Assembly: GCF_001425305.1 (NCBI RefSeq)
Contig: NZ_LMEE01000002.1
Location: 878,191 to 942,190, forward strand
Source of the DNA: Phenylobacterium sp. Root1290
GTDB lineage: Bacteria > Pseudomonadota > Alphaproteobacteria > Caulobacterales > Caulobacteraceae
Reading direction: 5' to 3'
Length of the DNA stretch: 64,000 nt
This document shows, in pieces, positions 31,122 through 34,626 of this stretch. A model generated the notes under the pieces. That model worked only from the letters and a program-made list of their open reading frames with translations, had not been told where the DNA came from and did not search any database. A program made the position numbers and the translations under genes. Numbering within the stretch: the first letter of the stretch is position 1; every line of letters starts with the position of its first letter.

Positions 31122-32393
31122 TCAGCGTCCCTTCGCCGTCAAGGCGGTGAGGCGCCCCGTCTCGGGCGCATCAGGGTCGGCGGCGAGCTTGGCCAGCGGC
31201 CGGATTCCGGTCTCCACCGGCGCCAGTTCGGGCAGTTCCTTGCCCTCGTGGTCGACCTTCAGGTCCTCAAAGCGCCGAGCCTGGGTCAGGACCTGCGTCT
31301 CAAGCGACCCGACGAACTGATTGTAGCGGGAGACCGCCGCCTCCAGCGCCTTGCCGACCGAGCCGGCGTGCGCGCCCATCACCGAGATCCGCTTATAGAG
31401 CTCGCGGCCCAGCTTTGAGATCTCCTGGGCGTTGGCGGCCTGCTCCTCGACCCGCCAGCCGTAGACGACCGCCTTGCAGAGCGCGAAGAGCGTCGTCGGA
31501 GTGACAACGAGGACGCGGCGATCCATCGCCTCGCTCATCAGCTCCGGCGCGCGCTCCAACGCCGCGGCCAGGAAGCTGTCGCCCGGAATGAACATGGCGA
31601 CGAAGTCTGGCGAGCCCTGGTTGAACTGATCCCAGTACGCCTTGGCCGAGAGCCCCTGCATGTGGGCGCGCACGCTCTGGGCGTGGCGCACATAGGCGGC
31701 CTCGCGGCTGGCGTCGTCGGTCGCCTCCTGCGCCTCGAGAAACGCGTTCAGCGAGCACTTGGCGTCGATCACGAACACCGCCCCGCCCGGCAGACGCACG
31801 GTCACATCAGGCCGGCGCCGGCCCTCGTCGGTGTCGGTCGAGGTCTGTTCGTCGAAGTCGTAGCGGTTGTGCAGGCCGGCGGCCTCCAGCACGTTGCGCA
31901 GGGTCTGCTCGCCCCAGCGGCCCTGAACGCCGGCCCCGCGACGCAGCGCCGCAGACAGCTTGCGCGCCTCGGCCTGAGTGGCGCTGGACGCCAGCATCAG
32001 CTGGTTGATCTGCTCCTTTAGGCCGCCGGTCTCTTCCGCCCGGGTCTTTTCGACCGCGACGACCTGCTCCTGGAACTTGGCCAGAGTCTCGGCGACCGGC
32101 TTGAGCTGCGCCTCGAGGCGCGCCTGGGCCAGCTGCTCTCTATTATGGAAGGTCTCGTCGGCGCGCTTCATCACCTGCTCGGCGATGGCCGCGGCGGCCT
32201 GGGCCTGGAGGAAGCCGGCGTTCTTGGCCTCCTGCTCCTCCATCACGCGCAGCCGGGTGGCGGCCTCCTGCAGCAAGGCGGCGCGCGCCTCGGCCCGGTT
32301 GGCGCGCCCGCGCTCCATGAGCGCCCAGGCGAGAGCGGGAATGGCCGCCAGCAGGGCGGCGAGGACGGCGAGCAGGATGGAGTCCAGGTTCAT
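31122..32393 (-). CDS. rmuC: DNA recombination protein RmuC
   Basis: 423 residues. An N-terminal hydrophobic anchor (ILLAVLAALLAAIPALAWAL) is followed by a long coiled coil (about 25-145) and the conserved RmuC domain (VQGRWGEQTLRNVLEAAGL, VTVRLPGGAVFVIDAKCSLNAFLEA, FVAMFIPGDSFLAAALE), a predicted restriction-endonuclease-like fold. In E. coli it limits inversions at inverted repeats, but the biochemistry is unsettled. First gene of the rmuC-def unit. The short region upstream of it contains an unrelated terminator belonging to a separate minus-strand RNA. Confidence 0.93.
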   Translation of the reverse strand: MNLDSILLAVLAALLAAIPALAWALMERGRANRAEARAALLQEAATRLRVMEEQEAKNAGFLQAQAAAAIAEQVMKRADETFHNREQLAQARLEAQLKPVAETLAKFQEQVVAVEKTRAEETGGLKEQINQLMLASSATQAEARKLSAALRRGAGVQGRWGEQTLRNVLEAAGLHNRYDFDEQTSTDTDEGRRRPDVTVRLPGGAVFVIDAKCSLNAFLEAQEATDDASREAAYVRHAQSVRAHMQGLSAKAYWDQFNQGSPDFVAMFIPGDSFLAAALERAPELMSEAMDRRVLVVTPTTLFALCKAVVYGWRVEEQAANAQEISKLGRELYKRISVMGAHAGSVGKALEAAVSRYNQFVGSLETQVLTQARRFEDLKVDHEGKELPELAPVETGIRPLAKLAADPDAPETGRLTALTAKGR

Positions 32394-32452
32394 GCTCCGT
32401 TCCTATACGGAGTCGGACCCAGGCGATAGTTTCGCAGCCCCAGGGCTCAGGC
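32394..32452. other. Short spacer between the small-RNA terminator and rmuC
   Basis: 59 bases carrying the rmuC promoter or leader. No other element seen. Confidence 0.4.
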
Positions 32453-32453
32453 C

Positions 32454-32481
32454 AAAAAAAAGCCGGACCCGAAGGCCCGGC
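32454..32481 (-). terminator. Intrinsic terminator of a minus-strand small RNA
   Basis: On the minus strand the sequence is GCCGGGCC-TTCG-GGTCCGGC followed by eight T. The stem is continuous there, using one G-U wobble, while on the plus strand the same pair would be an A-C mismatch. The T8 lies on the minus-strand 3' side. It therefore terminates a minus-strand transcript, yet the next minus-strand gene (rmuC) starts beyond it. Confidence 0.9.
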
Positions 32482-32537
32482 AGTTCATTAGGGAGGAAAC
32501 GCCCAGGAAGGGCAGAAGCGGCAGCGCCGCCTCACAG
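32454..32537 (-). ncRNA. Candidate small RNA (about 85 nt) with an anti-Shine-Dalgarno CCUCCC stretch
   Basis: A promoter (-35 TTGTTG at 32572-32567, 17-base spacer, -10 TATATA at 32549-32544) and the T8 terminator enclose about 85 bases on the minus strand without a usable reading frame. Reading 5' to 3': stem-loop GCGGC-GCT-GCCGC, stem-loop GCCC-TTCCT-GGGC with a pyrimidine loop, unpaired GTTTCCTCCCTAATGAACT, then the terminator hairpin with a UUCG loop. CCUCCC is complementary to a Shine-Dalgarno sequence, a feature of several alphaproteobacterial trans-acting small RNAs. It lies between rmuC and the divergent typA. I do not recognise a named family; the prediction rests on promoter, structure and terminator. 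Start site is estimated to within a few bases. Confidence 0.75.
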
Positions 32538-32543
32538 TTCGAA

Positions 32544-32572
32544 TATATACGGTGCGACGCACAAAACAACAA
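32544..32572 (-). promoter_or_regulatory. Sigma-70-type promoter driving the small RNA
   Basis: TTGTTG, 17 bases, TATATA on the minus strand: the best-matched vegetative promoter I see in the window, with transcription expected to start near 32537. Confidence 0.65.
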
Positions 32573-32790
32573 CCGAATTTGTGCCGAGCCCATCACATTT
32601 TCTGAAAACGGCGAAAAAATACGTTACAAATCAGTGAGATTTGAAAGCGCCTCAGGGCCATTCAGTTTGCTGCACCGCACAATGGCATGATATCAATGTT
32701 CGGCGCCGCGGCGAGAAGGCGCTGGCGCAAACGTCATTCGTCACCTAAAAGCGCGCGCTTCCCCAAATAGGCGCCCTCAAAGCCAAATCA
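32573..32790. other. Upstream region of typA
   Basis: About 220 AT-richer bases between the small-RNA promoter and the typA ATG. No open frame of note. A weak plus-strand candidate promoter is TTGCTG, 18 bases, TATCAA (about 32668-32697). The region must drive typA and may include its leader. No hairpin terminator was seen. Confidence 0.35.

Positions 32791-34625
<1,835 letters not shown>

Positions 34626-34626
<1 letters not shown>

Follow-up and report, generated by a model that had tools for sequence, protein, structure and literature searches.

The closest described relatives of the locus studied here are the small RNAs SisA of Caulobacter crescentus and MmgR of Sinorhizobium meliloti. 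In C. crescentus, SisA, SisB, SisC and SisD share a single-stranded 5'-UUUCCUCCCU-3' stretch; SisA represses many mRNAs through a 10-nt anti-Shine-Dalgarno seed, has the RNA CrfA as its sponge, and is a partner in about one in three of the sRNA pairs detected in Caulobacter (PMC12559287). The same source places sisA downstream of an FGase gene and describes SisA as nearly constitutive under the conditions tested, and its sections consulted here name no regulator for the sisA promoter. Hfq binding and a stable transcript are reported for SisA (R0014) and SisD (R0157) (PMC11005374).

In S. meliloti, MmgR limits polyhydroxybutyrate (PHB), and mmgR is under NtrC control and under negative control by AniA, with a conserved dyad between its -35 and -10 elements (PMC8401924). 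PhaR (AniA), a repressor that itself binds PHB and for which the consensus WNWD2NYGCRNYGCRNH2WNW is given, binds boxes at phaP1, phaP2 and mmgR, the mmgR site having been bound in EMSA (PMC12542648). PhaR binds the mmgR promoter in vitro and represses mmgR, and loss of the MmgR seed region raises PHB (PMC12542648, PMC8401924).

To place the present locus among these systems, we searched the window, meaning the whole 64-kb stretch of DNA analysed, with Rfam covariance models. A single gathering-level match was found by cmscan: family RF00519 (suhB, synonymous with mmgR and alpha-r8), matched over its full length (1-77) at 32447-32520 with 54.7 bits against a cut-off of 41. Other families, among them SorX, anti-hemB, SorY and NsiR1, scored below their cut-offs and were rejected. 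The sequence shows that the locus belongs to the alpha-r8 (MmgR/SisA) small-RNA family, of which it is the Phenylobacterium representative. The features of the locus are collected in Table 1.

Table 1. Coordinates, strand and supporting evidence for the features of the locus.
Feature	Position	Strand	Evidence or detail
rmuC, next gene downstream of the RNA	31122-32393	-	PF02646, 321.6 bits; FGase occupies this place in many relatives
alpha-r8 (MmgR/SisA) small RNA, about 83 nt	32454-32536	-	start inferred from the promoter; RF00519, fold, conserved pairing
Intrinsic terminator	32454-32481	-	stem 32462-32481, T tract 32454-32461; 6/8 pairs changed on both sides
Seed TTTCCTCCCT, anti-Shine-Dalgarno	32490-32499	-	direct reading; same 10-mer as the published alpha-R8 core
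Stem-loop 2, 5 pairs	32500-32514	-	99.4% of cells paired, nearly invariant
5' stem-loop 1, 8 pairs	32515-32533	-	97.3% of cells paired; 5/8 pairs changed on both sides
Promoter TTGTTG-17-TATATA	32544-32572	-	direct reading; CTTG, box and TAnAT kept in aligned promoters (72 loci)
-10 element TATATA	32544-32549	-	
Spacer, 17 nt	32550-32566	-	
-35 element TTGTTG	32567-32572	-	
Operator 1, PhaR/AniA-type box	32547-32567		core 32553-32561, between -35 and -10; 19/21 consensus positions
Operator 2, PhaR/AniA-type box	32665-32685		core 32671-32679, 118 bp from operator 1; 19/21 consensus positions
Putative typA (bipA), divergent neighbour	32791-34626	+	name by recognition

Read directly on the minus strand, the letters place the expected start of the RNA near 32536 and an unpaired stretch, GTTTCCTCCCTAATGAACT, at 32482-32500. 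Folding of 32454-32535 gave three hairpins with CCUCCC unpaired, at -38.7 kcal/mol (z -3.76), and none of 200 shuffled sequences was equally stable. The terminator stem consists of 8 pairs, 7 of them G-C, closed by a UUCG loop and followed by eight T. Reading and fold thus agree with the first-pass annotation, which had described this promoter, two stem-loops, the unpaired stretch and a UUCG terminator with eight U, and confirm the minus strand at 32454-32536 as a predicted small-RNA gene with a promoter, two stem-loops, an unpaired UUUCCUCCCU and a terminator. The same annotation had proposed an alphaproteobacterial regulator that acts in trans and exposes a CCUCCC anti-Shine-Dalgarno region, a proposal supported by the RF00519 match and by the published repression by SisA through UUUCCUCCCU (PMC12559287). 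The novelty that it implied does not hold, since the RNA belongs to a known Rfam family. Its promoter description stood, and it had overlooked the palindrome in the spacer (operator 1) and the second copy further upstream (operator 2).

Conservation of the structure was assessed in an alignment of 64 distinct typA-linked sequences, the window and 63 others from the genus, with rows selected to hold TTTCCTCCC. Pairing was retained in 98.5% of 1344 cells, compared with 36-54% in slid controls, and both sides had changed in 11 of 21 pairs, all in the first stem and the terminator, a result matched by none of 500 shuffles; conservation of stems and terminator among relatives, the lack of which the first-pass annotation had named as refuting its reading, is thus present. 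Stem 2 is nearly invariant and therefore without covariation evidence, so this alignment neither supports nor refutes it. The invariance of the seed is partly by construction, because rows were selected for TTTCCTCCC and locus L206, which lacks it, was omitted. L206 (G066:C398) is a typA-linked copy that scores above the Rfam cut-off yet has no exact TTTCCTCCC seed.

The family is widespread among relatives. RF00519 exceeded its cut-off in 97/100 genomes of the genus and 95/99 of the family. Within the present genome it matched three times, and the window copy alone passed the cut-off; the two weaker matches (L002, 32.8 bits; L003, 30.3 bits) lie below it, and TTTCCTCCC was not found in the inspected stretches of either. 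TypA gave one strong match in 95/100 genomes of the genus, and the TypA encoded here shares 98.4% identity with its P. haematophilum counterpart (L095), on which basis the genus is taken as Phenylobacterium. Among the matches listed, an RF00519 match lies upstream of typA in at least 74 of the 95 genus genomes with a strong TypA, and all 74 listed typA-linked matches are on the strand opposite typA. For genus Caulobacter (the genus of G190, including C. segnis, L113), a typA-linked copy was present in 15 of 20 stretches, which were hand-picked from the listed matches and are not a sample. One Phenylobacterium genome carries a tandem pair of alpha-r8 matches 82 bp apart (G028:C3:1829692-1829927).

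A neighbouring FGase gene is usual for the family, though not obligatory. The window contains no FGase match, and rmuC occupies the place of FGase beside the RNA. FGase-like genes adjoin the RNA at other Phenylobacterium typA-linked loci (e.g. L133, L136, L139, L143 and L144), and an FGase gene lies on the other flank in L382 (PF05013, 168.4 bits) and, by similarity, in C. segnis. Because the typA/FGase synteny matches in relatives, we regard the window RNA as the main family copy (SisA/MmgR ortholog), and orthology to Caulobacter SisA in particular is likely by synteny.

We then considered how the gene may be controlled. A scan for E. coli-type promoters called none here, so the case for the promoter rests on conservation: the aligned promoters of 72 loci share a conserved island, TTTTGTGCRNYGCAC, between -35 and -10. 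The core of operator 1, YGCRNYGCR, was found in the 110 nt that precede the seed in all 73 typA-linked Phenylobacterium loci counted (L206, without TTTCCTCCC, is omitted), against 9% of shuffled upstream regions, and in 72 of the 73 it occupies the same place, -59 to -62 from the seed. At the window locus the box stands 2 bp from the TATA element, and a pattern with a box-to-TATA gap of 10-30 bp gave no match. Consensus score alone is uninformative: 30 places in the window reach at least 19/21, and a GC-to-CG control reached this at 35 places on one strand. The argument for the boxes is accordingly one of conservation and position, not of score. Operator 1 as such is already known for S. meliloti mmgR, from the site listed in PMC12542648 and the dyad described in PMC8401924.

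A wider set of 196 loci, which overlaps the 73-locus set (L095 and G023 have the same coordinates) and is not independent of it, gave the core in 32/32 typA-linked promoters, 83/111 other promoters from the genome_contigs part, 10/19 other Phenylobacterium promoters and 1/19 other promoters that were Caulobacter-genus or named. The genome_contigs part is an uneven sample, made up of 120 among the listed stretches that are identical to the window RNA over 17 bases. The reversed motif occurred 0, 4, 0 and 1 times in the same four groups, and control windows held the core in 0/62 (typA-linked), 17/208 (genome_contigs), 2/38 (Phenylobacterium) and 1/38 (Caulobacter-genus or named). In one locus, L091, the boxes are placed differently, at -69 and -38. 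The near-constitutive expression of SisA in the conditions tested speaks against a PHB switch, and so does the finding of PMC12559287 that sisA-D have no promoter motif in common; the latter is expected if the boxes are present only at the typA-linked copy (1/19 at the others).

Copies of the gene elsewhere carry other arrangements. Among the Caulobacter-genus or named alpha-r8 promoters not linked to typA, 14/19 hold TAGCGCTA, which occurs in 0/32 typA-linked promoters; such copies away from typA include L228, L229, L263, L269-L273 and L389. TAGCGCTA is a LacI-family-like palindrome with a possible resemblance to the xylose operator. Non-typA copies in Phenylobacterium (L125-L131, L134, L141, L142, L145 and L147) form a second class, in which a PhaR-type box similar to TTGCGTGCAGTGCAC lies at -43 relative to the seed. 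In seven Bradyrhizobium loci (L005, L023, L065, L073, L109, L111 and L121) the alpha-r8 gene is preceded by a pair of PhaR-type boxes at a spacing of 21 bp, which is the commonest spacing of box pairs in the genome_contigs set. The sibling alpha-r8 copies may each answer a different carbon signal.

The second box, operator 2, is kept at a nearly constant distance from the first. A further core lies 100-140 bp upstream of operator 1 in 71/72 loci, against 23% of shuffled regions with any further core, and in 70 of these 71 the distance is 115-120 bp. The 71 distances are 118 bp in 36 loci, 117 in 18, 119 in 8, 116 in 5, 120 in 2, and 115 and 112 in one each. L215, whose box is at -37 rather than at -58 to -63, is outside the spacing counts, and L183, with no second box, is outside the distribution. 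Where the spacing is 118 bp (36 loci), the 85 bp that separate the boxes have a median pairwise identity of 28% (mean 35%, 10th-90th percentile 22-64%), so that many pairs are near random. The alignments thus show two PhaR-type palindromes, so classed by motif, conserved at locked spacing. Fixed spacing with diverged DNA between is the pattern expected of a looping pair, and a loop between the two operators is likely. It is likely rather than demonstrated because helical phase is not common to all groups of relatives and closely related loci are not independent observations: other typA-linked loci have spacings of 110-112, 117-119 or 131-134 bp (the L091 layout differs), and the 15 typA-linked loci of genus Caulobacter have 131-133 bp, with one at 146; spacings of about 111 and about 132 bp differ by two 10.5-bp turns, and about 118 bp fits neither.

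Several alternative readings of the locus were considered. The RNA ends 61 bp ahead of the rmuC start on the same strand, as would an attenuation or leader element of rmuC with no separate small RNA. The gene downstream of the RNA, however, differs among relatives, being an opposite-strand FGase in C. segnis and a TonB_C protein gene in L382, while the RNA stays, and the full-length match to RF00519 also argues against a leader. We rejected an rmuC attenuator, whose probability is negligible, on the ground that the RNA persists where its downstream neighbour is a different gene. A stronger competitor keeps the RNA and operator 1 and assigns operator 2 to separate PhaR control of the divergent typA, with no loop. 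Operator 2 is indeed the box nearer to typA, with its core 111 bp ahead of the typA start in the window. Yet the interval between operator 2 and typA is variable (sd 18.3) and that between the two operators is fixed (sd 1.07; n=69, leaving out two loci with typA more than 400 bp away), and in the columns flanking the box of operator 2 (25 bp before it, 34 bp after it) the information does not exceed 0.52 bits, a lack of conservation that speaks against a typA promoter there. We consider control of typA from operator 2 improbable, with about one chance in five.

The palindromes might instead belong to another TGC-N3-GCA regulator, in which case the RNA would be the same and its signal would not be PHB. 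Across the genome, TTGTGCRNYGCA matched 15 times and its reverse never; two matches are the pair at the window locus, and 8 of the 9 proteins scanned near matches have no obvious link to PHB, as another regulator would have it. Against this stand a gene for PhaR itself in this genome (PF07879, 105.4 bits, plus PF05233, both Pfam domains) and the presence of the same box before a phasin gene (PF09361, 92.5 bits), where two of the 15 matches are both strands of one palindrome. The promoter region of that gene (L245 1500-1560; G000:C1:98897) holds TTGTGCACTGCACAA and a second box, TTGTGCACTGCACAA resembling the S. meliloti phaP1 site (PMC12542648). PhaR of S. meliloti is, moreover, the protein that binds such boxes at its phaP and mmgR promoters (PMC12542648). 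A different regulator consequently appears unlikely to us, slightly more so than a role of operator 2 at typA.

The best explanation, to which we assign a probability of about 0.7, is that the locus encodes an alpha-r8 anti-Shine-Dalgarno RNA with a conserved promoter, controlled by a PhaR loop through two operators and released by PHB. From motif and genome context, PhaR would, without PHB granules, sit on operator 1 between -35 and -10, and operator 2, about 118 bp away, would assist it through a DNA loop, so that the gene is held off. As PHB accumulates, PhaR would be drawn to the granules, the loop would open and the RNA would be made; the released RNA would then brake the flow of carbon into storage, possibly by acting on phaC itself. 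The parts of this scheme that we infer are the binding of PhaR at this locus, the looping and the targeting of phaC.

With respect to the action of the RNA, the window RNA shows the features of alpha-r8 described in PMC12559287, namely a weak hairpin that precedes a single-stranded UUUCCUCCCU, and an intrinsic terminator, and the same action as SisA is the default assumption because the seed is identical. On this analogy with relatives, the RNA would act on Hfq, pairing UUUCCUCCCU with Shine-Dalgarno sequences, and would lower the translation of mRNAs that serve the uptake and use of carbon. The pattern GGGAGGAA-N(2-10)-ATG occurs at 21 places in the genome, compared with 0 for the reversed control, and 15 of the 21 open a frame of at least 150 codons; these include phaC, two TonB-receptor plugs, two AMP-binding enzymes and an enoyl-CoA hydratase. 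The genes at these sites are candidate targets only.

For phaC, contiguous seed complementarity of at least 7 nt was found at 10/30 Phenylobacterium and 8/30 Caulobacter-genus loci, against 0/46 window genes, taking 30 of 39 Phenylobacterium and 30 of 32 Caulobacter-genus matches and the best value over in-frame starts (L368 stops short of the gene start). Most relatives thus do not keep the complementarity, and at -15.0 the duplex energy is not exceptional, as window genes reach -17.9, each value being the best of many starts. By this evidence phaC is a weak lead as a target. The phasin mRNA was rejected as a direct target, its duplex of -5.4 lending no support.

A broader, tentative proposal, which we hold to be rather doubtful, is that throughout the Caulobacteraceae a PhaR loop between operators at fixed spacing silences the main MmgR/SisA gene, that PHB granules titrate PhaR and so open the loop, and that the RNA in turn shuts down phaC and carbon-uptake genes, so that the storage polymer would close a riboregulatory feedback loop on itself. 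The family, the seed and the mechanism are already published, and the RNA is not new in kind; the new part, as read from the genomes compared, is the promoter with its spacing-locked pair of PhaR-type operators. A search of open-licence literature found no report of PhaR control of SisA or of a two-operator mmgR promoter. The conserved pair offers a testable answer on sisA control, in which stored polymer is the signal. If true, this would unite what is known from rhizobia and from Caulobacter as one old circuit and make PhaR looping testable in a model organism.

Compared with SisA of C. crescentus (CCNA_R0014), the window RNA has the same UUUCCUCCCU seed, with a hairpin before it and a terminator after it (PMC12559287), and lies at the locus that has an FGase/typA neighbourhood in genus Caulobacter; it differs in adjoining rmuC instead of FGase, and the main text of PMC12559287, by term search, does not name PhaR. 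With MmgR of S. meliloti it shares RF00519 and a PhaR-type dyad between -35 and -10 (PMC12542648, PMC8401924), whereas a single PhaR site is listed for mmgR (PMC12542648) and the window locus has two at locked spacing. The auxiliary operators of Ralstonia eutropha phaP1 and phaP3 provide the parallel for several PhaR sites per gene with a proposed loop (PMC12849132); there the genes encode proteins and the evidence comes from binding assays, whereas here the gene encodes a small RNA and the evidence is the spacing kept across species.
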